This document shows, in pieces, positions 10,181-25,518 of a stretch of 60,586 nucleotides of DNA. Every line of letters begins with the position of its first letter. Positions within the stretch are counted from its first letter, which is position 1. The translations under genes and the position numbers were made by a program. Under the pieces are notes generated by a model. That model made no database searches. It was not told the DNA's origin and saw nothing but the letters and a program-made list of their open reading frames with translations. The DNA comes from Anoxybacteroides voinovskiense (lineage in GTDB: Bacteria; Bacillota; Bacilli; Bacillales; Anoxybacillaceae), in the NCBI RefSeq assembly GCF_014196205.1, contig NZ_JACIDE010000020.1, forward strand, positions 1 to 60,586, read 5' to 3'.

Positions 10181-10203
10181 GGCAGTTTTTTTAATATAAG
10201 GGG

Positions 10204-10219
10204 ATTCCCCTATAGGTAT
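10204..10219 (+). promoter_or_regulatory. CstR-type operator upstream of sqr
   Basis: ATTCCCCTATAGGTAT, reverse complement ATACCTATAGGGGAAT, fits the 16-bp palindrome repeated across the island. It lies 77 bases before sqr, between candidate -10 boxes TAATAT (10191) and TATAAT (10237). Confidence 0.7.
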
Positions 10220-10295
10220 GTTATTAATGATTGAAATATAATAAAGATAAGCTTTCGACTTAAAAATGTAAGCGAATACAAAAGGGGGTATTTCG

Positions 10296-11492
10296 ATGTT
10301 TAGTGATAAAACAACCGTAGCGATTGTCGGGGCTGGATCAGCAGGCCTTTCTATTGCGGCTCGATTAGTTCGAAAAGCACCTTTTTTGAAAAATAATGTC
10401 GTCATTATCGATCCATCCGATAAACACTACTATCAGCCGCTATGGACATTAGTAGGTGGTGGCGCTGCTGAGGTAGAAGATTCCGTTAGAGAGCAGAAAT
10501 CGTTAATCCCAGAAGGAGTACGATGGCTGAAAGAAGCGGTTCAAACGTTCGTTCCGGAAGAAAATAAGCTGTTGACAAAAGAAGGGACGGAAATTCAATA
10601 CGATTATTTAGTCGTAGCAACAGGTGTCCAAATTTACTGGGATAAAATCAAAGGACTAAAAGAAACAATCGGCAAAAACGGGGTGTGTAGCAACTATTCG
10701 TATGATTATGTGCAAAGTACGTGGGAGAACATCCGAAAATTTAATGGCGGGACGGCTATTTTTACACAGCCAAGTACACCAGTGAAGTGTGGGGGAGCGC
10801 CGCAAAAAATTATGTATTTAGCAGATGACTATTTTAGACAATCAGGCGTTCGCGACAAAACGAACATCATTTTTGCATCTGGTCTTCCGAATATTTTTGC
10901 CGTAAAACGGTATGCGGATACATTAGAAAAAGTCATTGAGCGAAAAGGAATTGAAACGAAATATCGTGTAGAATTAATCGGGATTGATGGAGAGCGTAAA
11001 CAGGCGATATTCCAACATTTAGATACGAATGAAACGTTTCCCCTTCACTATGATATGATTCACGTGACCCCACCAATGGGACCGCATGAATTTGTAGCAA
11101 AAAGCCCAATTGCAGACCAAGATGGGTGGGTAGATGTAGATAAATATACGTTAAGACATAAAAAATACGGTAATATTTTTGGCGCGGGAGATTGCACGAA
11201 TTTACCAACCTCAAAAACAGGAGCGGCAATTCGCAAACAGGCACCAGTAGTAGCAGAAAACTTGCTTTCCTTAATGAATGGAAAAGAAATGAAAGCGAAA
11301 TATGATGGATATACATCATGTCCATTAGTGACAGGGTATAACAAACTTGTGCTTGCGGAATTTGACTACGACAAAAATCCGAAAGAATCTTTCCCGATTG
11401 ATCAATCTAAAGAAAGAACGAGCATGTACATTATGAAAAAGCATTTGTTGCCTATTATGTATTGGAATGGGATGTTAAAAGGTCTTATGTAG
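10296..11492 (+). CDS. sqr: Sulfide:quinone oxidoreductase
   Basis: 398-residue FAD enzyme that oxidises H2S to persulfide or polysulfide and passes two electrons to the quinone pool. The FAD motif VGAGSAGLS is at residues 11-19, the second nucleotide motif VVATGVQ near 106, and the C-terminal FAD motif GAGDCTNLPTSKTGAA near 297. The redox pair is Cys165 (PVKCGGAPQK) and Cys342 (YTSCPLVTGYNK), as in the mitochondrial/type II-like SQR class. A C-terminal amphipathic tail likely docks to the membrane. It opens an operon with a DUF1641 gene and cstB, behind a CstR-type operator. Confidence 0.93.
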   Translation: MFSDKTTVAIVGAGSAGLSIAARLVRKAPFLKNNVVIIDPSDKHYYQPLWTLVGGGAAEVEDSVREQKSLIPEGVRWLKEAVQTFVPEENKLLTKEGTEIQYDYLVVATGVQIYWDKIKGLKETIGKNGVCSNYSYDYVQSTWENIRKFNGGTAIFTQPSTPVKCGGAPQKIMYLADDYFRQSGVRDKTNIIFASGLPNIFAVKRYADTLEKVIERKGIETKYRVELIGIDGERKQAIFQHLDTNETFPLHYDMIHVTPPMGPHEFVAKSPIADQDGWVDVDKYTLRHKKYGNIFGAGDCTNLPTSKTGAAIRKQAPVVAENLLSLMNGKEMKAKYDGYTSCPLVTGYNKLVLAEFDYDKNPKESFPIDQSKERTSMYIMKKHLLPIMYWNGMLKGLM

Positions 11493-11507
11493 GAAGGAGG
11501 GAGAGGG

Positions 11508-12074
11508 ATGGCTTCACTCAAAAATTCACGAATAGAAATGGTATTAGAACAGCTCGAACAACAAGAACAGCTGGAGTCACTTCACTATCTTGTGCAAAGA
11601 TTACCGGAACTTGTGGCTGTCATTCAGTCGCTGGAAAATCAAATGGCGTTTGTGGCAAGTGTTGCTCAAGATCGTGAATCTTTACAGCGCATGGTAAATG
11701 AAGCAGAAAGAAAATTAGAACAACTATCTATCACGAAGGAGCATATAGAATCATTAATAACTATAGTACAAATGTTGCCGACTATTACTCGGTTGTTACA
11801 AAAAATAGAAGATGTTGTTATGTTTATTGAGAATGTAGTGACAGATAGTGATTCGATAGCATATACGTGGAAAGGAATTAACGATCTTCTCCCAATTGAG
11901 AAAGGAATAACTATTTTAAAAGAAACAAACGAGCGCTTTCAACAAGGAAAACAAGATAGCCATTTTTCGTTATTACGGATGTATCGGCTGTTGAAAAACC
12001 CACTTGTTCAACAAGGGATTAAGTATATAGAAACATTATTAGAAGTAGCTAATAAAAAAATGAAAGGAGAATGA
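11508..12074 (+). CDS. DUF1641 family protein
   Basis: 188 residues, almost all alpha-helical and hydrophilic with leucine-spaced heptads, no cysteine. DUF1641 proteins have no established enzymatic role but are often encoded beside SQR or formate dehydrogenase genes. It sits 15 bases after sqr and directly abuts cstB, so it is probably an accessory or scaffold for sulfide oxidation. Start is an ATG after AAGGAGGGAGAGG. Confidence 0.8.
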   Translation: MASLKNSRIEMVLEQLEQQEQLESLHYLVQRLPELVAVIQSLENQMAFVASVAQDRESLQRMVNEAERKLEQLSITKEHIESLITIVQMLPTITRLLQKIEDVVMFIENVVTDSDSIAYTWKGINDLLPIEKGITILKETNERFQQGKQDSHFSLLRMYRLLKNPLVQQGIKYIETLLEVANKKMKGE

Positions 12075-13481
12075 ATGATGTTATTTCGTTCTTTCTTTGA
12101 TGAGCAACTTGCTCATATGTCTTATTTAGTTGGTTGCCAACGTACAGGTGAAGCAATTGTGATTGACCCGGCTAGAGATATCGAACCGTATATTCGTACA
12201 GCAGAAAAGGAAGGATTGACAATTACTGCCGCAACCGAAACACACATTCATGCTGATTTCGTTTCTGGGGCGAAAGAATTAGCAAAACGATGTGGGGCAA
12301 CTCTTTATTTATCAGATGAAGGGGACGAAAATTGGAAATATCAATATTTAGATGAAGTAAACTACGTCCTTGTAAAAGAAGGTAGCGTCTTTTCGGTTGG
12401 AAATGTCGAATTTAAGGTTATTCATACACCTGGTCATACTCCAGAGAGTATATCGTTCATTTTAACGGATAAAGGAGGAGGGGCGACAAAGCCAATGGGC
12501 ATTTTTACAGGGGACTTTGTATTTGTTGGGGATATCGGTCGCCCAGATTTATTGGAAAAAGCCGCAGGGGTTGTAGGAACAGCAGATAGTGGCGCCAGAC
12601 AAATGTTTCAATCATTGAAAAAATTCAAAGAACTTCCAGATTATTTACAAGTATGGCCTGCTCACGGGGCAGGAAGCGCATGCGGGAAAGCACTTGGAGC
12701 CGTTCCGGTTTCCACGATTGGGTATGAAAAAATGACAAACTGGGCGTTACAAATAGAAAATGAAGAGGAGTTTGTCAGTGCGTTACTTGCTGGTCAGCCT
12801 GAACCACCAAAATATTTTGCGATGATGAAAAAAATAAATAAAATTGGCCCTGCGTATGTAAATAATGAGCCGGTTCCAGTGTTAGCGAGTGTCAGGACGT
12901 TAGAGCAGTACAAAGGAGCCGTATTATTGGATGTGCGTCCGTCTGCGCAATTTGCAAAAGGCCATTATAAAGGCTCGATTAACATACCGTTTAACAAGTC
13001 GTTTACTACATGGGCAGGCTGGCTTCTCCGTTATGACCAAGATATTGTTCTTATTGCAGAAGAAAAAGAAATAGAAAGTATTCGTAAATCGTTAGCATCC
13101 ATTGGATTTGATCGTGTGGTTGCGGTGATTGAGCCATCCGTTCTGTTGGCAGGTGAAGCAATGGACGAGCGATACGAAGAAATCGATGTTCACCAACTGA
13201 AACAACTACTAAGCGAGGACGACTACTACCTTATTGATGTGCGCAATCAAGCAGAATGGGAAGAAGGAAGAATCGAATCAGCTCATCATATCATGCTAGG
13301 GACGTTATTAGACCGACTTCATGAACTTCCAAAAGGGAAAACATATGTTGTGCAATGTCGTTCAGGAGCTCGCTCTGCTATAGCTGCTAGCTTGCTACAA
13401 GCGAACGGGTACACGGAGGTTCTAAACGTTAAAGGTGGATATTTAGCTTGGACAAAAGAAAAGCTACCTGTAGTGAAATAA
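12075..13481 (+). CDS. cstB: CstB-type persulfide dioxygenase with two rhodanese domains
   Basis: 468 residues. Residues 1-245 form a metallo-beta-lactamase-fold Fe(II) persulfide dioxygenase: HIHAD (His57, His59, Asp61), HTPGH (His117, His121), Asp147 and His197, plus Cys203 as in S. aureus CstB. Residues 270-360 are a rhodanese fold without catalytic cysteine. Residues 370-465 are an active rhodanese with Cys428 in CRSGAR. This is the known CstB order: dioxygenase, pseudo-rhodanese, rhodanese. It converts persulfide to sulfite and thiosulfate. The gene abuts the DUF1641 stop codon. Confidence 0.92.
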   Translation: MMLFRSFFDEQLAHMSYLVGCQRTGEAIVIDPARDIEPYIRTAEKEGLTITAATETHIHADFVSGAKELAKRCGATLYLSDEGDENWKYQYLDEVNYVLVKEGSVFSVGNVEFKVIHTPGHTPESISFILTDKGGGATKPMGIFTGDFVFVGDIGRPDLLEKAAGVVGTADSGARQMFQSLKKFKELPDYLQVWPAHGAGSACGKALGAVPVSTIGYEKMTNWALQIENEEEFVSALLAGQPEPPKYFAMMKKINKIGPAYVNNEPVPVLASVRTLEQYKGAVLLDVRPSAQFAKGHYKGSINIPFNKSFTTWAGWLLRYDQDIVLIAEEKEIESIRKSLASIGFDRVVAVIEPSVLLAGEAMDERYEEIDVHQLKQLLSEDDYYLIDVRNQAEWEEGRIESAHHIMLGTLLDRLHELPKGKTYVVQCRSGARSAIAASLLQANGYTEVLNVKGGYLAWTKEKLPVVK

Positions 13482-13499
13482 TGATTTTCATTTCGATGA

Positions 13500-13528
13500 A
13501 TCGGCTGAACAACAGCCGATTTATTTTT
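13500..13528 (+). terminator. Intrinsic terminator after cstB
   Basis: ATCGGCTG and CAGCCGAT arms with loop AACAA followed by a T-rich tail. Confidence 0.85.
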
Positions 13529-13556
13529 GTATAAATCACACTTTTTTAGTTATAAT

Positions 13557-13572
13557 ATACCTATACAGGTAT
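13557..13572 (+). promoter_or_regulatory. CstR-type operator of the PAS kinase operon
   Basis: ATACCTATACAGGTAT directly follows a -10 box TATAAT (13551-13556) with TTGTAT 18 bases upstream. Binding here would cover the transcription start and repress the kinase/regulator pair. Confidence 0.75.
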
Positions 13573-13586
13573 AGAAGAGGTGGAAT

Positions 13587-14627
13587 ATGAAAAAAAGTAA
13601 ACAAGAGTTTTTAGATAAAATTTTTCATTATATACAAGATGGCATTATTGTGATGAATCAAAGAAGAGAGATTATTGAAATGAATCCTGCGGCGCGTAGG
13701 CTAACAGGATGGAATATTGGTGGAAAAGTACCTTATTGCTCTTTTTGTGAACAACGAGAAGTAAAAGAGGGGGAGGAACGGTGCTACTTAATCGCAACAG
13801 AAGAAGTACCTTATTTTTTATCGGAAATGCCGACGTATCATGGAACGATGATTGATGTAGAGATGAGCACAGCACTTATTTTAGAAGATGAAGTGACACA
13901 AGAAAAATATTATTTGCTCGTGCTGCGTGACCAAACGATTAAAAAGAAAGAGGAAGAGGCAAGAATTTCAAAATTAATGGTAAAACAACTAACAGAAGCA
14001 AAGGAGATGGAGCATAAACGGCTTGCTCAAGAGCTTCATGACGGTGTAGGACAATCTTTATATAGTATTGCGATTGCATTGGATAACATTATTCAACGAG
14101 TTCATGACCAAAAACTACATGAATATATTAATGAAGTTCGAAAAGAATTAGGGAAAGTAATGGAGGATGTGAAATCTTATTCACAGCAGCTTCGTCCCAA
14201 AAGTATAGATGAATTAGGACTTGTGCCGACAATTGAATCGCTTGTGCAGTCGGTTCAAACGAAAATGCCAACTACGACTTTTGTGTTTTCTGCAAACTTC
14301 GAAATGCGTCTATCACCCACGTTAGAAATTAATTTATACCGTGTTGTACAAGAAGCGTTGCACAACATAATGAAATATTCGAAGGCGACACATGTCGTTA
14401 TTCGAGTCGAAAAACGCACGCAATGGCTATATATTTATATCGCAGATAACGGAGTTGGTTTTTCTGTAGAGGAGAAGAAGGAAGGGTTAGGCCTAAAACA
14501 TATACGAGAGCGGATTTCGCAACTAAACGGCATGATTAATATTCAGTCGACGATTGGGGAAGGAACGATTATTGAAATTCACGTGCCGATAGAGGAGGAG
14601 GAAGATGAACGTTATCATCGTGGATGA
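13587..14627 (+). CDS. PAS-domain sensor histidine kinase with a three-cysteine motif
   Basis: 346 residues, soluble. A PAS domain (about 8-115) carries C51, C54 and C66 (CSFC, then C twelve residues on), close to the four-cysteine Fe-S PAS of staphylococcal NreB but lacking the fourth cysteine. A linker helix leads to HisKA_3 with His151 (AQELHDGVGQ) and a HATPase domain (NGVGF, GLGLKHIRER). Lies behind a CstR-type operator, so it is likely part of the sulfide response. A sulfur, oxygen or redox signal is plausible. Overlaps the regulator gene by 23 bases. Confidence 0.85.
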   Translation: MKKSKQEFLDKIFHYIQDGIIVMNQRREIIEMNPAARRLTGWNIGGKVPYCSFCEQREVKEGEERCYLIATEEVPYFLSEMPTYHGTMIDVEMSTALILEDEVTQEKYYLLVLRDQTIKKKEEEARISKLMVKQLTEAKEMEHKRLAQELHDGVGQSLYSIAIALDNIIQRVHDQKLHEYINEVRKELGKVMEDVKSYSQQLRPKSIDELGLVPTIESLVQSVQTKMPTTTFVFSANFEMRLSPTLEINLYRVVQEALHNIMKYSKATHVVIRVEKRTQWLYIYIADNGVGFSVEEKKEGLGLKHIRERISQLNGMINIQSTIGEGTIIEIHVPIEEEEDERYHRG

Positions 14628-15234
14628 CCATGTTCTTATTCGAAAAGGAATACGGTTGTTGTTGGAAGAATTTCCGGAAGTTAATGTTGTTGCTGAGGCG
14701 AGTGATGGGGCGGAAGCTATTACGTTAGCGATTAAACACATTCCTGACATTATTTTGATGGATTTATCGATGCCGGATGGATTAGACGGATTTACAGCTT
14801 CGAAAACAATTTTGGAAGAAGTGAAACAAACGAAAATTATTTTGCTTACTATGCACGACGAAGAAATATATGTAAAAAGAGCGTGGGAATGTGGAATACA
14901 TGGATACTTATTAAAAAATAGTCAGGCGAACGAATTGTATGAAACGATGAAGCGTGTTGCTAAAGGTGAACGAGTATATCAAACGAAAATACCGATGGAA
15001 CAATTAAAACGAGTTTCAAAAGAACGAGGGGCTTCTATTTTAACAAAAAGGGAGCAAGAAATTGTACGACTCACATCGCTAGGATACACAAATATGCAAA
15101 TTGCTCAACAATTAAAAATTAGCCCGAAAACGGTTGAAAATCATAAAGCAAATATTATGCAAAAACTTGCTTTACGAGATAAACACGATTTGGTGACGTA
15201 TGCTATTAAAAATGGATTGATTGGCTTGTTGTAA
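14605..15234 (+). CDS. NarL-family response regulator paired with the PAS kinase
   Basis: 209 residues: receiver domain with Asp53 (LMDLSMPDG) and LuxR-type DNA-binding domain (ILTKREQEIVRLTSLGYTN near residue 145). Start at 14605 follows GAGGAGGAGG and lies inside the kinase gene. The next genes downstream encode cytochrome bd, a natural candidate target, but no binding site could be derived. Confidence 0.9.
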   Translation: MNVIIVDDHVLIRKGIRLLLEEFPEVNVVAEASDGAEAITLAIKHIPDIILMDLSMPDGLDGFTASKTILEEVKQTKIILLTMHDEEIYVKRAWECGIHGYLLKNSQANELYETMKRVAKGERVYQTKIPMEQLKRVSKERGASILTKREQEIVRLTSLGYTNMQIAQQLKISPKTVENHKANIMQKLALRDKHDLVTYAIKNGLIGLL

Positions 15235-15256
15235 AAGTGGCGATTTAGCCACTTTT
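15233..15256 (+). terminator. Intrinsic terminator after the response regulator
   Basis: AAAAGTGGC, GATTTA, GCCACTTTT hairpin overlapping the stop codon; only a short T stretch follows. Confidence 0.75.
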
Positions 15257-15329
15257 GTCATAAAACCGACAAAAAAACGTCACGGTTTTGTCATTGTGTC
15301 GCGCTACGGTTTTCGGTATGTTTAAGAAG

Positions 15330-15358
15330 TATAATAATTGAATGTGAAGTTTATCACA
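15330..15358 (+). promoter_or_regulatory. cyd promoter -10 with a Rex/Fnr-type box just downstream
   Basis: TATAAT at 15330-15335 is followed by TGTGA-N6-TCACA at 15343-15358, flanked by A and A. The half-sites fit both Fnr and Rex recognition. Its position at about the transcription start favours a repressor (Rex) over an activator. A further imperfect palindrome lies at 15397-15418. The untranslated leader is therefore about 150 bases. Confidence 0.6.
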
Positions 15359-15497
15359 ATCGGAGTTTCGTCACAAAAAGTTCAACGTTTCTCGGGATAT
15401 AGGGGAGATTCCTTATATAATGCTAGCTGCAGTATTTTTACAATATAAATACAGGGATAATAATAATAACGTGCGCGATGGAGAAGGGAGAAGTGTC

Positions 15498-15590
15498 ATG
15501 TGGAAAACGCACGAAAAACGATTAGTTGTGCTTAGTTTTGTCGTTGCCTCAATTATGTTGTTATCAATAATAGGAAGATTGTTTTCGTGA
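15498..15590 (+). CDS. 30-residue single-helix membrane peptide upstream of cydA
   Basis: ATG after GAGAAGGGAG, 31 codons to a TGA, 13 bases before cydA. A charged N-terminus (MWKTHEKR) is followed by one hydrophobic helix (residues 9-28) ending in GRLFS. Size and topology resemble CydS/CydX-type bd-oxidase subunits, yet the real cydS lies after cydB. Either an additional small subunit or an assembly/leader peptide. No family recognised. Confidence 0.62.
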   Translation: MWKTHEKRLVVLSFVVASIMLLSIIGRLFS

Positions 15591-15603
15591 AGGAGGAAGT
15601 TAT

Positions 15604-16947
15604 ATGTATAATCCGGTGTTATTTAGCCGAATATTGACAGAGTTGACGCTGACGTTTCACATTATTTACGCAACGATCGGCGTTGGCGTTCCGCTTATGA
15701 TTGCGATTGCGCAATGGGTAGGAATTCGTAAAAACGACGAGCATTACATTTTATTAGCGCGACGGTGGACACGCGGATTCGTCATTACGGTAGCGGTCGG
15801 AGTAGTGACCGGGACAGCCATTGGATTGCAGTTATCGTTATTGTGGCCGAATTTTATGAATTTAGCTGGGCAAGTCATTAGCCTTCCATTATTTATGGAA
15901 ACGTTCGCGTTCTTTTTCGAGGCGATTTTTTTAGGGATTTACTTATATACGTGGGATCGGTTTAACGATCAGAAGAAGCACTTTTTATTGTTGATTCCGG
16001 TAGCGATCGGTTCATCCGCTTCTGCACTCTTTATTACCATCGTCAACGCATTTATGAATACACCGCAAGGGTTTGAATGGAAAAATGGCGTGATTACGAA
16101 TATTCAGCCGCTTGTCGCGATGTTTACACCAGCGATGCCGACAAAAGTGGCGCACGTCTTAACGACAGCATACATGACTTCAGCGTTTGTATTGGCGTCG
16201 ATTGCTGCTTTTCATTTATTGAAAGGAAATCGCCATCCATACCATAAAAAGGCGCTTCATTTGACAGTAAAAGCAGCGCTTATTTTCTCGCTTGCGACGA
16301 TTGTTGTCGGAGATTTATCGGGGAAATTTTTAGCGAAATATCAACCAGAAAAACTAGCTGCTGCCGAATGGCATTTTGAAACGAGCACACATGCCCCTCT
16401 TGTCTTGTTCGGGACATTAGACGAAAAAAAGGAAGTAAAAAACGCGATTAAAATACCGTCTGCCCTTAGTATTTTGGCGCATAATCTACCAAGCGCCGAA
16501 GTCACAGGGTTAAATGATATTCCGAAAGAGGAGCAGCCGCCATTATATATTCACTATTTGTTTGACTTAATGGTACTTATCGGTGTTTGGTTGACAGTAA
16601 TGGCTACTTTATATTGGGCAGGAATGAAAAAGGGGCTCGCATTTCCGCTGAAAAAACCATTTTTGTGGCAACTAGTGTTGTCGGGTCCGCTAGCAATGCT
16701 TGCGATTGAAATTGGTTGGTATTTTACAGAAGTAGGAAGACAGCCGTGGATTTTGCGCGGATATATGAAAACGGCGGAAGCGGCAACGAAATCAGCCCAT
16801 GTCGATACGTTGCTCGTTATATTCTCGCTCCTTTATCTCGTGTTGGGGGTTGCTAGCGTCGTTGTATTAACGAAAATGTTCCGCAACAATCCAGTGGAGC
16901 GAGAACTAGAAGAACGTGCGCTCAATCAAGGAGGGGTTTCCTCATGA
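15604..16947 (+). CDS. cydA: Cytochrome bd quinol oxidase subunit I
   Basis: 447 residues, nine membrane helices. His19 fits the haem ligand of helix 1, and the GRQPW motif is at residues 378-382. The Q-loop is short, as in Bacillaceae bd oxidases. It oxidises quinol and reduces O2 to water. Known bd oxidases tolerate sulfide that poisons haem-copper oxidases, which fits its place inside a sulfide-oxidation island. Overlaps cydB by four bases. Confidence 0.94.
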   Translation: MYNPVLFSRILTELTLTFHIIYATIGVGVPLMIAIAQWVGIRKNDEHYILLARRWTRGFVITVAVGVVTGTAIGLQLSLLWPNFMNLAGQVISLPLFMETFAFFFEAIFLGIYLYTWDRFNDQKKHFLLLIPVAIGSSASALFITIVNAFMNTPQGFEWKNGVITNIQPLVAMFTPAMPTKVAHVLTTAYMTSAFVLASIAAFHLLKGNRHPYHKKALHLTVKAALIFSLATIVVGDLSGKFLAKYQPEKLAAAEWHFETSTHAPLVLFGTLDEKKEVKNAIKIPSALSILAHNLPSAEVTGLNDIPKEEQPPLYIHYLFDLMVLIGVWLTVMATLYWAGMKKGLAFPLKKPFLWQLVLSGPLAMLAIEIGWYFTEVGRQPWILRGYMKTAEAATKSAHVDTLLVIFSLLYLVLGVASVVVLTKMFRNNPVERELEERALNQGGVSS

Positions 16948-17957
16948 CATTAGAAATAGTAGGGATTTCGGTACTATGGCTATTTTTATTCGGCTACATT
17001 ATCGTTGCGTCGATTGATTTTGGTGCGGGATTTTTTAGTGCTTATAGTGAACTTGCGAACAAAAAACATGTCATTCATCAAATTATTCAGCGATATTTGT
17101 CGCCGGTATGGGAAGTGACGAACGTCTTTCTCGTCTTCTTTTTCGTCGGCATGGTCGGGTTTTTCCCGAAAACGGCGTATTATTATGGAACGATTTTGTT
17201 AGTTCCAGCGAGCATTTCGATTATTTTATTGGCCATTCGCGGTTCGTATTATGCATTTAGTACGTATGGGATAAAGGATAATAAATGGTACATGTTTTTA
17301 TACGGAATGACAGGGGTGTTCATTCCAGCATCGCTTTCGATTGTTTTCACGATTTCAGAAGGTGGATTTGTACGGATAAACGATGGAGAGCCGACGCTAT
17401 TATATAAGCAGCTATTCGTCAGCCCGTTCACATGGAGCGTTGTGCTGCTTAGCTTGACGAGCGTGTTATATATTTCGGCGAACTTTTTAACGTATTATGC
17501 CAATGCTGCTGGGGATGAACGTGCGCGTGAGTTGCTGCGAAAATATGCGCTCGTTTGGAGTGGGCCGACCATTTTATCAGCATTAGTTATTACTTATCAA
17601 TTAAACCATCATAATGTGGAACATTATACGAAAATGATGGATGTATCATGGATGTTTGTTGTTTCGTTTTTCTTTTTCCTTGTTTCGCTTTACTTGCTTG
17701 TCAAAAAGCGTTATTTCGGGTGGTCGTTTATTAGCTTAGTGTTGCAATATGCATTTGCGTTTTATGCATACGGTATTTCACATTATCCGTATTTGTTGTA
17801 CCCGTATTTAACGATTTATGACAGCTTTACAAATAAAACGATGGCAACTGCATTAGTCATTGCGTTTATTGCTGGATTGTTCTTACTTATTCCATCGCTT
17901 GTTTTGCTGTTGAAATTGTTTTTATTTGATAAAAAATATGTCAAAGGACAAATATAA
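16944..17957 (+). CDS. cydB: Cytochrome bd quinol oxidase subunit II
   Basis: 337 residues with eight to nine membrane helices, beginning near IVGISVLWLFLFGYIIVASI and carrying the DFGAG motif (residues 26-30) typical of CydB. Structural partner of CydA. ATG overlaps the cydA stop (ATGA). Confidence 0.93.
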   Translation: MTLEIVGISVLWLFLFGYIIVASIDFGAGFFSAYSELANKKHVIHQIIQRYLSPVWEVTNVFLVFFFVGMVGFFPKTAYYYGTILLVPASISIILLAIRGSYYAFSTYGIKDNKWYMFLYGMTGVFIPASLSIVFTISEGGFVRINDGEPTLLYKQLFVSPFTWSVVLLSLTSVLYISANFLTYYANAAGDERARELLRKYALVWSGPTILSALVITYQLNHHNVEHYTKMMDVSWMFVVSFFFFLVSLYLLVKKRYFGWSFISLVLQYAFAFYAYGISHYPYLLYPYLTIYDSFTNKTMATALVIAFIAGLFLLIPSLVLLLKLFLFDKKYVKGQI

Positions 17958-17970
17958 GGAGGATTTCGCC

Positions 17971-18069
17971 ATGCAAACATTTTTAATCATGTATGCCCCG
18001 CTTCTTGTTGTTGCTTTATCAGTCGTAGCCGCTTTTTGGGCAGGATTAAAAGACGAGCAAGTAGAATAA
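17971..18069 (+). CDS. cydS: CydS small subunit of cytochrome bd
   Basis: 32 residues, one membrane helix, starting MQTFLIMYAP and ending in an acidic tail. It closely resembles the third subunit CydS described in the Geobacillus thermodenitrificans bd oxidase structure. AAGGAGGA ribosome site, 13 bases after cydB. It caps the haem b595 side of CydA in that structure. Confidence 0.9.
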   Translation: MQTFLIMYAPLLVVALSVVAAFWAGLKDEQVE

Positions 18070-18079
18070 AGTTATTCTC

Positions 18080-18112
18080 TCACCGCCTGTATATTGGGCG
18101 GTGAATTTTTTT
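18080..18112 (+). terminator. Intrinsic terminator after cydS
   Basis: TCACCGCC and GGCGGTGA arms followed by a run of T. The T-run runs into the -35 (TTGCAT) of the next unit. Confidence 0.9.
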
Positions 18113-18154
18113 GCATAAGCTGTGATGTATGTAGTAAAATACATACACAGGTAT
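18111..18154 (+). promoter_or_regulatory. Promoter and CstR-type operator of the methyltransferase-MFS operon
   Basis: TTGCAT (18111-18116), 18-base spacer, TAAAAT (18135-18140), then ATACATACACAGGTAT at 18139-18154 overlapping the -10. Confidence 0.68.
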
Positions 18155-18224
18155 ATAAAGATGATGTGAAGTAGTCGTAAAAACAGCTCACGTTAGAAAT
18201 AGATGAAGAAAGGTGAGGATAGAA

Positions 18225-18794
18225 ATGGCAGGACATCGATTTAATCCAGAAAAAGCAGGAAGGCTGTTAGATCCAAAAAGGAAAGAACTAATTTCCCCTC
18301 AGCAAGTTCTTTCTTTATTGCAAATGGACGAGCGTGATATTGTTGCAGATTTAGGTGCAGGTAATGGTTACTTCACTGTACCATTAGCCAAAACGACGAA
18401 GGAAATTGTCTATGCAATCGACGTGCAACCTGAAATGCTTGAACTGTTGAAGGGGCATGCGGAAAAAGAAAAAGTTGCAAACATTGAATATATCGTTAGT
18501 GATGTGACGGCAACCCCTCTACCTCCTCATTTCATTGATAAAGGAATAATGGCGTTTGTTTTTCACGAAATTGCCGAGTGGGACGCAGCATTTGATGAAA
18601 TAAAGCGAATCATGAAGCCAAATGGAAAATTTCTTTTGATTGACTGGGAAGCTGCCGAAAGCGAGATGGGACCACCGCTCCATGAACGTATTCCATCTGA
18701 GGAGTTGCTTGCGTATGCGAACACAAAACGTATAGACACGCAGCTTATTCATTTTCATCCCGCGGTGTATGGCTTATTGCTGACGCATTTATAA
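18225..18794 (+). CDS. Class I SAM-dependent methyltransferase (UbiE-like)
   Basis: 189 residues. SAM motif I is VADLGAGNGYFTVPLA (about residues 42-57), acidic motif YAIDVQPEM follows, and post-I/II motifs FVFHEI and GKFLLIDWE are present. The small size lacks an extra substrate domain. Operator-linked to the persulfide island and followed by an MFS pump, so it may methylate a thiol, metalloid or sulfide compound; the substrate is inference. ATG at 18225 follows AAAGGTGAGG; the GTG at 18213 lies in that site. Confidence 0.82.
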   Translation: MAGHRFNPEKAGRLLDPKRKELISPQQVLSLLQMDERDIVADLGAGNGYFTVPLAKTTKEIVYAIDVQPEMLELLKGHAEKEKVANIEYIVSDVTATPLPPHFIDKGIMAFVFHEIAEWDAAFDEIKRIMKPNGKFLLIDWEAAESEMGPPLHERIPSEELLAYANTKRIDTQLIHFHPAVYGLLLTHL

Positions 18795-18822
18795 ATGTGG
18801 ATAAGGAGGGTTATGGATAACG

Positions 18823-20058
18823 ATGGTTTTTTTAAAACTTGGGATAAAAGAGAACTGGTTGCAATTTTTGTTATTAGCCGTTATTAATGTGTTTGTTGGC
18901 TCGATGGTGGGGATTGAACGAACCGTTTTGCCGTTATTGGGAGAAAAACAATTTGGGCTCACTTCTATGAGTGCAGCTCTTTCTTTTATTATTAGTTTCG
19001 GGTTTTCGAAAGCAATTGTGAACTATTTTGCTGGGCAAATTGCTGATTATATTGGTCGAAAACGAGTGTTATTATTAGGCTGGATCATTGGTGTATTCGT
19101 TCCGCTTCTTATTATTGTTGCACACAAATGGTGGGTCGTTGTATTAGCAAACGTTTTATTAGGAATGAATCAAGGATTGACATGGTCAATGACGGTCAAC
19201 ATGAAAATTGATATCTCGAAACAAAATGAAAGGGGAATGGCAGTAGGGTTAAACGAATTTGCAGGCTATTCTGGTGTTGCCGTTATGGCAGCTGTATCAG
19301 GGTATATTGCTTCTTCGTATTCATTTAGGCCGGAACCGTTTTATTTAGGAATTGCGGTTGCTCTTGTGGGCATTGTTTTATCTACAGTTGTTCGGGATAC
19401 TCGCCAACACTTGCAATTGCAAATGGGTGATGCCCAGAAAGGAAAACGTGTGGAGCAGCAGTTATCAGCAAAAGAAGTGTTTCAGCTAGTAACTTGGAAA
19501 CATAAAACACTTTCTAGCCTTAGCTTTGCAGGACTAGCCACCAACTTAAAAGATGGAATGGCATGGGGACTTTTCCCTTTATATTTTACTGTTTCTGGAT
19601 TAAGTGTTCGTCAAATCGGAGTGATTGTCGCCATATATCCAGCGGCGTGGGGGCTTTTTCAACTAGTTACAGGTGCTTTAAGTGATAAAATCGGGCGAAA
19701 ATGGATGATCACATATGGAATGTTGTTGCAATCATTCGCCATTTGGTTCATTCTCGTTGTTAACCATTTTTTTTTCTGGGTTGTTGGTGCGGTCTTTTTA
19801 GGACTTGGAACAGCTATGGTGTATCCGACATTACAAGCAGCTACTAGTGATGTTGCTGCCCCATGCTGGCGCGCTTCTGCCATGGGAGTATATCGGTTTT
19901 GGCGAGATAGTGGGTACGCATTAGGGGCGCTTATAGCAGGGATGGTTGCAGATGTACTAGGGGTCACATGGGCAATGGGGTTAGTTGCTCTGCTACCGTT
20001 TAGTGCGGGAGTGTTGGTGTACGCTCGAATGGATGAAACGATCGAGGAAACAGTCTAA
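18823..20058 (+). CDS. MFS transporter
   Basis: 411 residues, 12 predicted helices. MFS loop motifs GQIADYIGRKRVLLLG (about residue 71) and its repeat GALSDKIGRKWMITYG (about residue 285) are clear. A central hydrophilic loop separates the halves near residues 190-220. The start lies 13 bases past AAGGAGGG, longer than usual; an out-of-frame ATG at 18813 sits between. Cotranscribed with the methyltransferase and so probably an exporter of its product or of a related toxic compound. Confidence 0.85.
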   Translation: MVFLKLGIKENWLQFLLLAVINVFVGSMVGIERTVLPLLGEKQFGLTSMSAALSFIISFGFSKAIVNYFAGQIADYIGRKRVLLLGWIIGVFVPLLIIVAHKWWVVVLANVLLGMNQGLTWSMTVNMKIDISKQNERGMAVGLNEFAGYSGVAVMAAVSGYIASSYSFRPEPFYLGIAVALVGIVLSTVVRDTRQHLQLQMGDAQKGKRVEQQLSAKEVFQLVTWKHKTLSSLSFAGLATNLKDGMAWGLFPLYFTVSGLSVRQIGVIVAIYPAAWGLFQLVTGALSDKIGRKWMITYGMLLQSFAIWFILVVNHFFFWVVGAVFLGLGTAMVYPTLQAATSDVAAPCWRASAMGVYRFWRDSGYALGALIAGMVADVLGVTWAMGLVALLPFSAGVLVYARMDETIEETV

Positions 20059-20228
20059 ACATATAAACGAATGTTGGCGATGCTATATTCTTCCGCATAC
20101 TTCATCATTTTCTTAGCTAATTCCTCGTTACGCCAATTCGCGTAGCGTGCTAAAAACTTTTAACAGAAGCGTGATGTTTTTAGTGGAGGTAAAAAAGTAA
20201 GGCTATTGGGAAAAAATAATCCAGAACG

Positions 20229-20290
20229 TTGACATTTAGTAAAATCTATTTTAATATATACCTATAGGGGTAATATACCTATATATGTAT
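20229..20290 (+). promoter_or_regulatory. Promoter with two tandem CstR-type operators
   Basis: TTGACA (20229-20234), 17 bases, TAATAT (20252-20257), then ATACCTATAGGGGTAA (20258-20273) and ATACCTATATATGTAT (20275-20290) with start-to-start spacing of 17 bp. The only unit in the island with a doubled operator. Confidence 0.78.
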
Positions 20291-20311
20291 TTTGGTGAGG
20301 AGGAATGAAAA

Positions 20312-20701
20312 ATGAAAGTAGCGATTATTGCAGCAAACGGCGGATTGTTTGATGCGTATAAAGTATTTAACATTGCAACGGCAGCAGCGGCAACAGAAGG
20401 TGAGGTAGCGATTTTCTTTACGTTTGAGGGATTGAACCTCATTCATAAAGAAGCGTATAAGCAGTTGCCAATGCCAGCGGGAAAAGAACACTTCCAAGAA
20501 GGATTTGAAAAAGCGAACGTCCCATCAATTCCGGAGCTTGTAGCGATGGCGCAAGAGCTTGGCGTGAAAATGATCGCTTGCCAAATGACGATGGACGTCA
20601 TGGGACTAGAAAAAGACCAATTTGTTGATGGGGTAGACGTTGCTGGAGCAGCAACTTTCTTAAGCTTTGCGAAAGATGCAGATATTACGCTCACATTCTA
20701 A
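20312..20701 (+). CDS. DsrE/DsrF-like sulfur carrier (first copy)
   Basis: 129 residues, DsrE2-type fold: N-terminal beta strand VAIIAANGG, FFTFEGLNLIHK, and the single cysteine Cys90 in MIACQMTMDVMG. DsrE-like proteins accept and pass on persulfide sulfur through this cysteine. Two bound operators lie upstream and glutaredoxin follows after 12 bases. Confidence 0.86.
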   Translation: MKVAIIAANGGLFDAYKVFNIATAAAATEGEVAIFFTFEGLNLIHKEAYKQLPMPAGKEHFQEGFEKANVPSIPELVAMAQELGVKMIACQMTMDVMGLEKDQFVDGVDVAGAATFLSFAKDADITLTF

Positions 20702-20713
20702 TGGGGGATTGGT

Positions 20714-20944
20714 ATGAATAAAGTAACCGTATATACGACAACTACTTGTCCATATTGTGTGATGTTAAAAAACTTTTTGCAGGCACAAGGCATCCCGTTT
20801 ACAGAAGTAAACGTTCAACGCGATCCAATTGCTGCGAGAAAATTAGTGGCTACTACAGGACATATGGGAGTACCACAAACTGAAATTAACGGGCAATGGG
20901 TGCTTGGGTTTGACCCAGAAGCGATTATGGCGCTTATTAAATAA
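20714..20944 (+). CDS. Glutaredoxin-like thiol reductase
   Basis: 76 residues, one glutaredoxin domain with CPYC (Cys12, Cys15) and the cis-proline motif GVPQTEING near residue 53. Dithiol class, so it can reduce mixed disulfides or persulfides. Cotranscribed with a DsrE protein; likely reduces the carrier or the bacillithiol persulfide pool. Confidence 0.9.
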   Translation: MNKVTVYTTTTCPYCVMLKNFLQAQGIPFTEVNVQRDPIAARKLVATTGHMGVPQTEINGQWVLGFDPEAIMALIK

Positions 20945-20947
20945 TCG

Positions 20948-20976
20948 AAAAGCGAGACCGACTAGTCTCGCTTTTT
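20948..20976 (+). terminator. Intrinsic terminator after glutaredoxin
   Basis: AAAAGCGAGAC and GTCTCGCTTTT arms with a six-base loop and T-tail. Confidence 0.9.
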
Positions 20977-21017
20977 CCATTTCTACATAAGCCCGATAGA
21001 AACAATCGGAAAAATGC

Positions 21018-21046
21018 TTGATTAAATACAGACAGGGGTATATAAT
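21018..21046 (+). promoter_or_regulatory. cstR promoter with autoregulatory operator
   Basis: TTGATT (21018-21023), 17-base spacer, TATAAT (21041-21046); ATACAGACAGGGGTAT (21026-21041) fills the spacer. Confidence 0.75.
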
Positions 21047-21104
21047 TATTATATAAATGCTATAATAAACGTATAATGTTTTACGTTTGAAAAGAGGTGG
21101 AGGC

Positions 21105-21365
21105 ATGGAATATAGCAAAGAAATCAAAAACCGGCTGAAGCGAATTGAAGGGCAAGTGAAAGGTGTTTTAGGAATGATGGAGCAAGGAAAAGATTGCAAA
21201 AGCGTCGTTGCGCAACTATCCGCTGCACGTAATGCAATCGATAGAGCGATGGCTGTCATTGTTAGTTCCAACCTCGAGCATTGTATTCGAGAAAATATCG
21301 AAAAAGGGGAGCAGACGGAACACCTTGTCAAAGAAGCGGTGGAACTACTCGTGAAAAGCCGATGA
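21105..21365 (+). CDS. cstR: CstR persulfide-sensing repressor (CsoR family)
   Basis: 86 residues, the same length as S. aureus CstR. All-helical CsoR/RcnR fold (KNRLKRIEGQVKGVLGMM). The two sensing cysteines are Cys31 (GKDCKSV) and Cys60 (LEHCIREN), and the copper-binding histidine pattern of CsoR is absent. CstR forms di- to tetrasulfide bridges between these cysteines when persulfides accumulate and leaves DNA. ATG at 21105 follows AGAGGTGGAGG; an in-frame TTG at 21087 lacks a site. Its operator-like sequence recurs through the whole island. Confidence 0.92.
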   Translation: MEYSKEIKNRLKRIEGQVKGVLGMMEQGKDCKSVVAQLSAARNAIDRAMAVIVSSNLEHCIRENIEKGEQTEHLVKEAVELLVKSR

Positions 21366-21394
21366 ACAAAATCGTCAACTCTTGAAAAGAAGGG

Positions 21395-21437
21395 TTGACA
21401 AATTTTTTGATGCATAATAATATACGTATAGGGGTAA
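21395..21437 (+). promoter_or_regulatory. Promoter and CstR-type operator of tusA
   Basis: TTGACA (21395-21400), 17 bases, TAATAT (21418-21423), overlapped by ATACGTATAGGGGTAA (21422-21437). Same layout as the promoter at 20229. Confidence 0.77.
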
Positions 21438-21472
21438 TGGTAAAAAACAAAAATACAAGGAGGAGACAATAG

Positions 21473-21700
21473 ATGAACATTGTAAAGACAGTAGATGCGA
21501 AAGGATTATCTTGCCCAATGCCACTTGTAAAAACAAAAAAAGCAATTGATGAGTTAACTTCTGGGCAAGTGTTAGAAGTGCACACAACTGATAAAGGGGC
21601 AAAAAACGATTTAGCTGCTTGGGCGAAAGTGAGCGGACATAAATTAATTGAAATGAAAGAAGAAAATGGTGTGCTTATATTTTTGATTGAAAAAGCATAA
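21473..21700 (+). CDS. tusA: TusA-family sulfur carrier
   Basis: 75 residues. The TusA signature CPMP with Cys14 in GLSCPMPLVKTKKAI lies at the start of helix 1. TusA accepts a persulfide from rhodaneses or cysteine desulfurase and hands it on. Nearly identical in its first half to the TusA domain of the fusion at 22935, which points to duplication. Confidence 0.92.
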   Translation: MNIVKTVDAKGLSCPMPLVKTKKAIDELTSGQVLEVHTTDKGAKNDLAAWAKVSGHKLIEMKEENGVLIFLIEKA

Positions 21701-21716
21701 CTTTTTCGTTTATTAT

Positions 21717-21732
21717 ATACCTATACACGTAT
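21717..21732 (+). promoter_or_regulatory. CstR-type operator before the second dsrE gene
   Basis: ATACCTATACACGTAT follows TATTAT (21711-21716), 20 bases before the start codon. Confidence 0.7.
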
Positions 21733-21751
21733 AAGTTGAGGAGGCGAAGGA

Positions 21752-22231
21752 ATGACAGAAAAGAAGAGGACAACGATTATTTTATTCAGCGGTGATTACG
21801 ATAAAGCAATGGCTGCTTATATTATCGCAAACGGTGCGGCAGCATACGATCACGAAGTAACAATTTTCCATACATTTTGGGGGCTTAATGCGCTTAGAAA
21901 AGAAGAACAAGTACGTGTACAAAAAGGTTTTTTAGAAAAAATGTTTGCAAAAATGATGCCGCGCGGCGCAGATAAACTCGGATTATCGCGCATGCATTTT
22001 GCAGGTATCGGCCCAAAACTCATTAAACAAGTGATGAAAAAGCATAACGCAATGCCGCTTCCGCAATTGATCGATATGGCGAAAGAACAAGGAGTCAAGT
22101 TAGTTGCTTGCCAAATGACAGTGGACCTTTTAGGACTAAAGCAGGAAGAACTTATTGATGGTATTGAATTTGCTGGGGTTGCCGCTTATTTAGCAGACGC
22201 CTCCGAGGGAAATGTAAATCTCTTTATTTAA
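21752..22231 (+). CDS. DsrE/DsrF-like sulfur carrier (second, longer copy)
   Basis: 159 residues. Same fold and motif as the copy at 20312 (LVACQMTVDLLG, Cys120) but with a 30-residue insert rich in basic and methionine residues (KMFAKMMPRGADK, near 63-75). Likely a persulfide carrier that works with the rhodaneses downstream. First gene of a four-gene unit. Confidence 0.86.
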   Translation: MTEKKRTTIILFSGDYDKAMAAYIIANGAAAYDHEVTIFHTFWGLNALRKEEQVRVQKGFLEKMFAKMMPRGADKLGLSRMHFAGIGPKLIKQVMKKHNAMPLPQLIDMAKEQGVKLVACQMTVDLLGLKQEELIDGIEFAGVAAYLADASEGNVNLFI

Positions 22232-22241
22232 GGTGAGCGAT

Positions 22242-22607
22242 ATGACACAAACGATCATTAATATACTGTTATTCGTATTGGTTGCATGGTTTCTTGCTGG
22301 CCGTCTTCTTCCCGCTAAAGGGGTGCGAACGATTACGACGGCACAGTTAAAAAAAGAGCTAGGGAAAAAAGATGTCCAATACATTGATGTTCGCACACCA
22401 ATGGAATTTCGCGCCCATCATATTCGTGGGTTTCGAAATATTCCGTTGCACGAATTAAAGCAACGGGCGCATGAGTTAACGAAAGAAAAAGAAGTCATTG
22501 TGATTTGTCAAAGTGGAATGCGCAGTACGAAAGCGAGTAAATTATTGAAAAAGTTAGGGTTCCAGCACGTCACGAACGTGTCTGGTGGCATGAATACATG
22601 GACATAG
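22242..22607 (+). CDS. Membrane-anchored rhodanese
   Basis: 121 residues: an N-terminal membrane helix (about 5-23) and a single rhodanese domain with Cys89 in CQSGMR. It transfers sulfane sulfur at the membrane face, close to SQR. ATG at 22242 follows AAGGTGAGC; the GTG at 22233 is inside that site. Confidence 0.88.
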   Translation: MTQTIINILLFVLVAWFLAGRLLPAKGVRTITTAQLKKELGKKDVQYIDVRTPMEFRAHHIRGFRNIPLHELKQRAHELTKEKEVIVICQSGMRSTKASKLLKKLGFQHVTNVSGGMNTWT

Positions 22608-22618
22608 GAGGAAGAAAC

Positions 22619-22915
22619 ATGAAAGAAATTACAGCGAAAGAAGTAGAACAACTTTTACAAAACGGCACACCATTAAACATCATCGATGTACGGGAAGTCG
22701 AAGAAGTAGCGGCTGGAAAAATTCCAGGTGCTGTCAACATTCCGTTAGGATTGATTGAGTTTCGCATGAACGAACTTTCTAAGGAAAAAGAATATATCAT
22801 CGTCTGTCGTTCCGGTGGACGAAGCGCACGTGCCACTCAATTTTTAGAAAGCTATGGCTATAACGTGACCAATATGCTTGGTGGCATGCTAGCATGGGAA
22901 GGACCTGTCGAGTAA
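22619..22915 (+). CDS. Single-domain rhodanese sulfurtransferase
   Basis: 98 residues, rhodanese domain with Cys63 in CRSGGRS and CH2A-type motif IIDVREVEEV at residue 21. Cytosolic. AGGAGGAAG ribosome site, 11 bases after the membrane rhodanese gene. Confidence 0.9.
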   Translation: MKEITAKEVEQLLQNGTPLNIIDVREVEEVAAGKIPGAVNIPLGLIEFRMNELSKEKEYIIVCRSGGRSARATQFLESYGYNVTNMLGGMLAWEGPVE

Positions 22916-22934
22916 ACGAAAAGGGGGAATGAGA

Positions 22935-23507
22935 ATGATTCAAGTCAACATGACTGTCGATGCGAAAGGGTTATCGTGCCCGATGCCAATCGTTAAAACG
23001 AAAAAAGCAATGAATGAGCTTGCACCAGGGCAAGTGCTTGAAGTGCAAGCGACCGATAAAGGGTCAAAAGCAGACATTAAGGCGTGGGCAGAAAGCACCG
23101 GTCATCAATACCTTGGCACAGTAGAAGAAGGGAATGTGTTAAAACATTATATTCGCAAAGCAAGCGAGAACGAAGCAAAAGAGGAAGCAAAATTTCCACA
23201 TGTCATTTCCAACGAAGAGTTGCTGACAAAGCTAAGCGACCCATCTGTAACGATTTTAGACGTTCGCGAACCAGCAGAATACGCATTTGGTCATATTCCA
23301 GGAGCAGTTTCCATTCCGCTTGGCGAATTGGAAGTTCGCGTGAATGAATTAGAAAAAGAAAAAACGATTTATGTTATTTGCCGTACAGGCAGCCGTAGTG
23401 ATTTAGCAGCGCAAAAATTAGCGGAAAAAGGATTTGTAAATGTTTGGAATGTTGTTCCAGGTATGTCACAATGGAATGGAGCGGTAGAATCAGAGCCGCT
23501 CGAATAA
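22935..23507 (+). CDS. TusA-rhodanese fusion protein (CstA-like)
   Basis: 190 residues. Residues 1-75 are TusA with Cys15 (GLSCPMP); residues 90-185 are rhodanese with Cys149 (CRTGSR). S. aureus CstA likewise joins rhodanese, TusA and DsrE modules, so this operon looks like the same functions split over several genes. The ATG at 22935 is favoured over 22929, which abuts the AAAAGGGGG site. Confidence 0.88.
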   Translation: MIQVNMTVDAKGLSCPMPIVKTKKAMNELAPGQVLEVQATDKGSKADIKAWAESTGHQYLGTVEEGNVLKHYIRKASENEAKEEAKFPHVISNEELLTKLSDPSVTILDVREPAEYAFGHIPGAVSIPLGELEVRVNELEKEKTIYVICRTGSRSDLAAQKLAEKGFVNVWNVVPGMSQWNGAVESEPLE

Positions 23508-23530
23508 AGGGGATTTTTATTGAATATATT

Positions 23531-23546
23531 ATACTATAGGGGGTAT
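23531..23546 (+). promoter_or_regulatory. CstR-type operator over the ribosome site of the second dioxygenase
   Basis: ATACTATAGGGGGTAT lies eight bases before the start codon and its G-run doubles as the Shine-Dalgarno sequence; TATATT (23525-23530) is a possible -10. Confidence 0.65.
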
Positions 23547-24684: not shown

Positions 24685-24692
24685 GAAAATAT

Positions 24693-24720
24693 AGGGGGCG
24701 AAAGTTGCCCCCTGCTTTTA
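24693..24720 (+). terminator. Intrinsic terminator after the rhodanese-dioxygenase gene
   Basis: AGGGGGC and GCCCCCT arms with a seven-base loop; the T-run is short, so read-through into tauE is likely. Confidence 0.7.
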
Positions 24721-24735
24721 TAAGGGGGATTTTTA

Positions 24736-25518
24736 ATGGATGTGACATTAAATTATATTATTGTCATTTTTCTCATTGGTTTTATCGGTTCGTTTATTTC
24801 CGGAATGGTCGGAATCGGTGGTTCGATTATTAAATATCCGATGTTGCTTTACCTCCCGCCGCTATTTGGACTTGCGGCGTTTAGCGCCCACGAAGTAGCC
24901 GGCGTCAGCGCCGTACAAGTGTTTTTTGCAACGATTGGTGGCGTATGGGCGTATCGGAAAGGCGGCTATCTTAATAAAAAACTCATTCTTTACATGGGGA
25001 TTAGCATTTTGATTGGAAGTTTTATTGGTGGGTATGGTTCAAAACTAATGTCAGAAAATAGTATTAATATCGTCTATGGCGTGTTAGCGGCAATCGCAGC
25101 CATTATGATGTTTGTCCCGAAAAAGGGAATTGATGATGTTCCATTAGACAAAGTGACGTTCAATCAATGGCTCGCGGCAACGCTTGCTTTTGTTGTCGGA
25201 ATCGGTTCTGGAATCGTCGGAGCAGCTGGTGCGTTTTTATTGGTACCGATTATGCTCGTTGTGCTTAAAATTCCGACGCGCATGACGATTGCTTCTTCTT
25301 TAGCAATTACGTTTATTTCTTCCATCGGTTCAACGTTCGGGAAAATTGTCACAGGGCAAGTCGAATTTATTCCAGCGCTTATTATGGTCATTGCAAGCAT
25401 TATCGCTTCGCCGCTCGGGGCAAAAACAGGACAAAAAATGAATACAAAAGTGCTGCAAGTCATTTTGGCAGTACTTATTTTCGCAACCGCGGTAAAAATT
25501 TGGCTCGGACTTTTATAG
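24736..25518 (+). CDS. tauE: TauE/SafE-family exporter
   Basis: 260 residues, seven to eight membrane helices, with paired glycine-rich motifs [16 protein letters not shown] (near 20) and [17 protein letters not shown] (near 155). TauE proteins move sulfite, sulfoacetate or other sulfur compounds; in S. aureus tauE belongs to the cst locus. Probably exports sulfite or thiosulfate made by the dioxygenases. No promoter seen, so probably transcribed by read-through. Confidence 0.9.

Follow-up and report, generated by a model that had tools for sequence, protein, structure and literature searches.

We examined a 60,586-nt stretch of the Anoxybacteroides voinovskiense genome (contig NZ_JACIDE010000020.1, positions 1 to 60,586; hereafter the window), in which a 13.3-kb island carries a series of short palindromes resembling operators of the CsoR-family repressor CstR. 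The whole genome comprises 3.23 Mb in 58 contigs. The island is probably a two-tier sulfur-stress regulon, in which CstR represses the two-component system nreBC and a set of sulfur-transfer units, and NreBC activates sqr-pdo and cydAB. In the unstressed cell, CstR would sit on ATAC-N8-GTAT frames (N, any base) over the core promoters of nreBC, a methyltransferase-MFS (major facilitator superfamily) transporter unit, dsrE-glutaredoxin (with tandem sites), cstR, tusA, and a dsrE2-rhodanese operon. A site at cstB would probably be occupied too, and beyond the island CstR would bind at least once more in the genome, upstream of a rhodanese lipoprotein gene. Persulfide would cross-link Cys31 and Cys60 and release CstR, allowing the carriers, rhodaneses, CstB, and NreBC to be made. 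With sulfide present, the kinase and regulator would then activate sqr-pdo and cydAB via a GGG/CCC repeat upstream of each promoter, and the bd oxidase would let the cell respire while oxidising sulfide. The site at 10204 would belong mainly to this second tier, perhaps as a composite element. The positions fit the model because the CstR sites lie on promoter-like cores and the GGG/CCC repeats lie upstream of likely -10 elements. The model builds on the sites themselves, for which we directly observed the positions, the degree of conservation, the spacing specificity, and which relatives have or lack them. CstR binding, derepression, and sulfide sensing are carried over from work in Bacillus licheniformis and Staphylococcus aureus. 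For two further elements, NreC acting at cydAB and the methyltransferase's role, we found no precedent, and they are our own proposals.

The original prediction placed nine copies of a 16-bp palindrome in the island, and all nine are present. A search of the window with ATACCTATANNGGTAT at up to 3 mismatches gave 17 strand-wise matches, eight of the nine sites among them; 100 dinucleotide shuffles averaged 2.82 matches and never exceeded 8. The ninth, at 23531 (ATACTATAGGGGGTAT), is 5 positions off the predicted pattern. When a symmetric matrix was built from the nine sites and scored leaving one out, the same eight each scored above all non-site positions in the window; 23531 failed, with 125 non-site positions scoring equal or better. 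The strict frame ATAC-N8-GTAT occurs 10 times in the window (0.52 expected), compared with once for the N9 spacing and never for N7. Across the genome, the predicted pattern at 0–1 mismatches has six distinct places, of which the island holds five and contig C16 the sixth, and site 13557 is the sole match with 0 mismatches. At up to 3 mismatches the pattern is not enriched genome-wide (95+102 matches, against 160+134 for the reversed control). For the palindrome ATACCTATATAGGTAT at up to 3 mismatches, 6 of 17 genome places fall in the island (0.07 expected, P ~6e-11), and the remaining 11 are at about control level (10). Taken together, the shuffles, whole-genome counts, and reversed-pattern controls rule out chance as the source of the cluster.

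Five of the sites lie at promoter-like sequence, in line with the suggestion that they stand at or near promoters. Sites 13557 and 21717 are directly 3' of TATAAT/TATTAT, 20258 and 21422 stand behind TTGACA-N17-TAATAT, and 21026 lies between TTGATT and TATAAT. Site 10204 is set farther upstream of its own -10 than the other sites are, and it overlaps a different inverted repeat. Promoter-type matches overall are not commoner in the window than in shuffles (40 vs. 41.9). Nor is the regulon confined to 14 kb, since there is at least one strong off-island site, C16:5887, 30 bp before a rhodanese lipoprotein gene. This gene occupies positions 1099-1470 of locus L002 (contig C16) on the minus strand, and a NosD-like frame there reads the opposite way. 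A match at C21:37078 was dropped as a promoter site, as it sits between convergent frames. The features of the island are as follows, with "left-out" denoting leave-one-out matrix scores.

10197..10213, + strand: NreC-type inverted repeat TAAGGGGATTCCCCTAT before sqr, kept at sqr promoters of NreBC-carrying genomes; the window's best match to the sqr-site matrix
10204..10219, + strand: CstR-like 16-mer overlapping the 10197..10213 repeat; left-out 17.2, score 13.6 in 8/8 family relatives, none >=11 at sqr in other families
10276..10291, + strand: weak extra ATAC-N8-GTAT frame just before sqr, a candidate only; relatives do not keep it
10296-11492, + strand: sqr, first gene of the unit 10296..13481
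11508-12074, + strand: uncharacterised 188-aa protein between sqr and the persulfide-dioxygenase-like gene
12075-13481, + strand: persulfide-dioxygenase-like metallo-beta-lactamase (MBL)-rhodanese protein, in the sqr unit
13557..13572, + strand: putative CstR operator on the nreBC promoter; the genome's only 0-mismatch match, behind TATAAT at 13551-13556
13587-14627, + strand: nreB-like PAS-HisKA_3 kinase of the nreBC-like two-component system, unit 13587..15234
14605-15234, + strand: LuxR-type regulator (nreC-like) of the same two-component system
15400..15416, + strand: NreC-type repeat TAGGGGAGATTCCTTAT before cydA, a match to the sqr-site matrix
15604-16947, + strand: cydA, bd-type oxidase, cydAB unit 15604..17957
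16944-17957, + strand: cydB, bd-type oxidase, named by position and homologous arrays
18139..18154, + strand: putative CstR operator before the methyltransferase; left-out 17.0, same place in G013
18225-18794, + strand: class I S-adenosylmethionine (SAM) methyltransferase, unit 18225..20058
18823-20058, + strand: MFS transporter, adjoining the methyltransferase
20258-20273 and 20275-20290, + strand: tandem putative CstR operators; relatives have tandem or overlapping pairs
20312-20701, + strand: dsrE-like gene, unit 20312..20944
20714-20944, + strand: glutaredoxin, unit 20312..20944
21026..21041, + strand: putative CstR operator before cstR; left-out 12.6, identical in G010 and G012
21105-21365, + strand: cstR, CsoR-family repressor with Cys31 and Cys60, by PF02583 and cysteine alignment
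21422..21437, + strand: putative CstR operator before tusA, by matrix
21473..21700, + strand: tusA
21717..21732, + strand: putative CstR operator before dsrE2, by matrix
21752-22231, + strand: dsrE2, unit 21752..23507
22242-22607, + strand: rhodanese, dsrE2 unit
22619-22915, + strand: rhodanese, dsrE2 unit
22935-23507, + strand: TusA-rhodanese fusion, dsrE2 unit
23531..23546, + strand: weak yet conserved operator frame before cstB, in 15/16 loci including the window; fails the matrix
23554-24684, + strand: cstB-like rhodanese-MBL protein, unit 23554..25518
24736-25518, + strand: TauE-type exporter, unit 23554..25518

The label DUF1641, applied to the 188-aa protein, has no Pfam support. Directly 3' of cydB lies a 32-codon frame (17971-18069), which we take to resemble the small bd-oxidase subunit CydS.

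The protein encoded at 21105 is a CstR with Cys31 and Cys60, as predicted. It matches PF02583 at 85.8 bits (Pfam), and the two cysteines align with cysteines of 7MQ1/7MQ2. In 41 genomes of the family, the palindrome at up to 2 mismatches has 82 places, 75 of them listed, against 70 for the reversed-pattern control. Loose matching by itself proves nothing, and the signal is where the places lie. Among the listed places, 32 of 75 are within 2 kb of cstR, compared with none of the 70 control places; within 12 kb the counts are 35 and 3, and 32 of 70 listed places once the window's genome is set aside. We also examined the 41 listed places more than 5 kb from cstR, leaving out the window's 13557. 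A sulfur gene reads away within 500 bp of 16 of them, compared with 0 of 30 control places (those of the 70 with a locus). These distant genes encode eight membrane rhodaneses, three rhodanese lipoproteins, three methyltransferases, a glutaredoxin, and a CoADR-rhodanese. Two of the 16 places (L002 and L154) match query proteins from the same loci, and those queries were added after the neighbours were known. Three genomes without a close CstR (G016, G034, and G039) have no palindrome place. In G020, CstR-like operators at L154:590 and L154:2399 precede a CoADR-rhodanese gene and frames that we read as CcdA- and TlpA-like, which suggests further regulon members.

Operator conservation was then scored for each unit, with up to 59 loci per unit and some genomes entering twice, counting matrix scores >=13 within 150 bp before the gene. 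Such a score was found before dsrE2 in 40/52 loci, tusA in 28/53, the TusA-rhodanese gene in 12/52, the methyltransferase in 3/16, and dsrE in 34/52, although loci without dsrE may have contributed a dsrE2 match. The count for cstB was 0/52, and here the matrix misleads. The ATAC-N8-GTAT frame precedes cstB in 15 of 16 loci, the window's included, compared with 1/18 for tauE and 0/18, 0/17, and 0/19 for three other neighbouring genes. Given its matrix score, we had considered 23531 a ribosome-binding-site coincidence; this was dropped in view of those 15 loci, in one of which (L156) the frame is farther from the start. Congeners, like Geobacillus and Parageobacillus loci, also have paired operators before dsrE-glutaredoxin. 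Multi-operator layouts were found in other Bacillaceae too, and the expanded regulon is therefore a wider feature, not peculiar to this genome.

The second tier of the model concerns sqr and cydAB. Among the 41 family genomes, SQR and the kinase are confined to one shared set of nine (E <=1e-60), and AGGGAAATCCCCTATGGGTAT is kept about 100 bp before sqr in all eight family relatives having sqr. In other families with NreBC, 9 of 12 readable sqr leaders carry a GGG/CCC repeat, mostly TAGGGG-N3-CCCCCTAT, without a CstR-like site >=11. The leaders left out were L318 (start not located), L323 (no sqr shown), and L320, L325, and L328 (match to a distant protein only). With a matrix made from sqr sites alone, the repeat was recovered before cydA in 7 of 8 NreBC-carrying loci (12.9 to 22.7), compared with 0 of 7 NreBC-lacking loci (maximum 5.1). 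A repeat pattern written from the two window sites, TARGGGNNNNNCCYTAT, has no exact match elsewhere in the genome, and 10 of its 13 one-mismatch places outside the window sit within longer frames. Both window repeats lie upstream of a likely -10, TATAAT at 10237 and TACAAT at 15439; the latter, picked from two candidates, is our inference for cydA.

The PAS-HisKA_3 kinase and LuxR-type regulator adjoin sqr-pdo, as in the sulfide-sensing NreBC of B. licheniformis, and by sequence comparison the conserved inverted repeat is at the position expected for NreC binding on the sqr promoter. In the PAS region of the kinase (13587-14627), C51, C54, and C66 are invariant in 20 of 20 orthologues, arranged as C-x2-C-x11-C. 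The staphylococcal NreB has four PAS cysteines that bind a [4Fe-4S] cluster, according to the passages of PMC4601167; the 20 kinase orthologues have no fourth invariant PAS cysteine and so differ from that pattern. A three-cysteine cluster open to sulfide may be how NreB senses sulfide, which is a testable idea. Titles and abstract openings of the PMC literature on cytochrome bd/cydAB, sulfide, and two-component systems, as distinct from the full texts, do not mention NreC at cydAB. Bd oxidases resist sulfide. Passages of PMC9405070 point toward such resistance.

We also considered the methyltransferase and the adjoining MFS pump, which had been predicted to belong to the regulon as a pair. 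Methyltransferase orthologues are present in 25 of 41 family genomes (E <=1e-40) and, order-wide, in 51 of 397 genomes (E <=1e-45). An upstream matrix site >=14 is found at 8 of 27 family loci: one in the window, one in G013, and one in each of six genus g2 genomes. All six g2 genomes having the gene carry the operator at -38 to -40, and the gene there sits either on a different contig from cstR or over 500 kb away from it. In most Geobacillus-type loci the methyltransferase lies inside a dsrE-glutaredoxin-(cstB-like)-methyltransferase-cstR array, with the operators at the first promoter. In other families, 21 loci were examined out of 42 such genomes: eight, from a single genus of one family, have a site >=13 at -49 to -56; eight more have sulfur genes of the set within 1.5 kb; and five have neither. 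The pump adjoins the methyltransferase only in the window and, broken, in one congener. We do not count it as a conserved member because no operator >=14 directly precedes the MFS transporter in those Geobacillus-type loci that have one. The methyltransferase is thus a conserved member and the pump is not, leaving half of the predicted pair. In L159 (G013), the methyltransferase is split between two frames and of the pump just the end remains, so that broken copies stand behind an intact-looking operator.

The predicted structure of the methyltransferase (mean pLDDT 89.9) has a general class I fold, and its best Foldseek match is 3DH0 (TM 0.90), an enzyme from Aquifex whose title says no more than SAM dependent methyltransferase. 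The analysis turned up no characterised close relative, and the NCBIfam rows shown for the window protein fall below their cut-offs. Because ArsM-like enzymes need cysteines, the absence of any invariant cysteine from an alignment of 29 methyltransferase sequences argues against an enzyme of that type. The PMC literature yielded nothing joining CstR with a SAM-dependent methyltransferase and rhodanese.

Several observations weigh against the two-tier model. The CstR-carrying genomes G009 and G028 also lack a palindrome place, and a matrix score >=13 within 150 bp before cstR was found in just 10 of 59 loci. The nreBC operator has no counterpart in eight family relatives (one with a broken gene), and at nreBC a site >=13 is present in only 1 of 17 loci of other families (14.4). 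On the NreC side, scores of <=8.2 were obtained for 3 of the 12 sqr leaders from other families, the repeat before cydA in the window is imperfect (its 12.9 is reached by 3 of 1500 shuffles), and the NreBC-carrying locus L154 has no cydA repeat. With one mismatch, TARGGGNNNNNCCYTAT is not enriched genome-wide (18 vs. 36 control matches). A simpler scheme is that CstR alone represses all nine promoters, acting on sqr directly via 10204 and perhaps 10276, with the two-component system an output and not the controller of sqr. Site 10204 has a left-out score of 17.2 and differs little from operators 20258 and 21422, CCCCTATGGGTAT is retained before sqr in all eight family relatives, and 10276 offers a second ATAC-N8-GTAT frame at sqr. 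We nonetheless regard this scheme as unlikely, as sqr promoters in other families keep the GGG/CCC repeat without a CstR-like site, the repeat is also at cydA, and 10204 is placed upstream of the promoter core. YrkD, the CstR homologue of B. licheniformis, did not bind the sqr promoter there, and NreC did (passages of PMC9918477). Because 10204 overlaps a repeat (10197-10213) that is conserved at sqr promoters of NreBC-carrying genomes and recurs at cydAB (15400), it is more likely an NreC-type site, alone or composite with CstR, than the plain CstR operator of the original prediction.

It could also be that function is limited to the core cst operators (20258 to 23531), with 13557 and 18139 recent or incidental and without effect on expression of nreBC or the methyltransferase. 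Compared with four congeners (G010, G012, G013, and G014), the window has an extra block from ~10187 to 15255 with sqr, pdo, and nreBC, whose edges are contiguous in G010 and G012. The methyltransferase-pump block (~18070-20248) is missing in these two genomes, with broken copies in G013 and only a diverged pump in G014. Both blocks have clean edges against congeners. These absences, together with the lack of an nreBC operator in eight relatives, favour a core-only regulon, but 13557 is the genome's best match and lies on a -10 element, and the methyltransferase keeps operators in a second family genus and in 8 of 21 other-family loci (all eight one genus), making such a restriction improbable. 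Binding by another regulator, such as the copper sensor CsoR, is more doubtful still. CsoR-family operators are alike, and the genome has a second CsoR-family gene besides cstR, at C16:39893, directly followed by a frame that looks like a copper ATPase. However, csoR leaders carry ATAC-N9-GTAT in 10 of 14 cases and the N8 frame in none, although in two (L262 and L264) a 16-mer reaches 14.3 with the CstR matrix. In L025 and L256-L269 the csoR leaders have ATACCCATTACCGGTAT or a 17-mer much like it in common, which exceeds the CstR site by one base. Since the palindrome places track cstR and sulfur genes, are missing from the three genomes without a close CstR, and differ in spacing from csoR leaders, the N8 operator is most simply read as CstR's.

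On the two-tier model, the less known parts are the direct predicted CstR operator on nreBC, the NreC-type cydAB site, and the methyltransferase with CstR-like operators in two families. We tentatively raise the possibility that the persulfide repressor directly gates a sulfide-sensing two-component system that turns on sqr-pdo and cydAB, re-routing respiration in the same step as detoxification. As a third arm in this speculative circuit, a SAM methyltransferase under CstR-like operators in two Bacillales families might methylate sulfide, persulfide, or thiols. The two-tier regulon would move CstR from a single-operon view to a regulon readable from the genome by a spacing rule (N8 for CstR and N9 for CsoR in this family), and the distant matches before rhodanese genes indicate that this rule predicts targets. 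It would also tie sulfide sensing to terminal oxidase choice through a concrete candidate site, and give a widely kept methyltransferase a regulatory context that hints at its substrates.

The island resembles several known systems. In the passages of PMC5480029, a single operon is proposed as the direct CstR target in S. aureus, and sequence and comparison uphold the claim that one CstR-type operator set here spans many more units. The window shares with the S. aureus cst system the CstR Cys31/Cys60 pair, CstB, SQR, and TauE-type genes, and CstA-type domains, but its CstA-type domains are separate genes and its sqr is in another unit. In Enterococcus faecalis, CstR controls rhodanese genes, as predicted for the window, and coaP, and the passages of PMC9405070 do not mention a two-component system or methyltransferase. 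TTHA1953 of Thermus thermophilus is likewise described as a CsoR-family regulator of sulfur genes at several sites, but of Sox genes (passages of PMC10318464). MddH, MddM1, and MddM2 are described as SAM methyltransferases that are induced by H2S and thought to detoxify it (passages of PMC12904073), and the window's enzyme is likened to them by description only, as a SAM methyltransferase. The closest parallel is yrkD-nreBC-sqr-pdo of B. licheniformis MW3, as reported in the passages of PMC9918477, in which a CstR-type repressor is likewise combined with sulfur-transfer genes and nreBC, and NreBC lies beside sqr-pdo. There, YrkD represses an 11-gene cluster containing nreBC, binds two promoters, and is released by sulfane sulfur, while NreBC senses sulfide and activates sqr-pdo. 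The two-component system is thus not new to such a regulon, as had been supposed, and NreBC-type genes beside sqr-pdo are also noted in Geobacillus in the same passages. The B. licheniformis cluster is co-transcribed and holds two YrkD sites, with read-through supplying expression of nreBC. In the window, by contrast, separate units each have a predicted operator, one directly on nreBC, and an NreC-type cydAB site, the methyltransferase-MFS unit, and an off-island site are added. The circuit would be a denser version of the one shown in B. licheniformis, and its known part is larger than the original prediction allowed.

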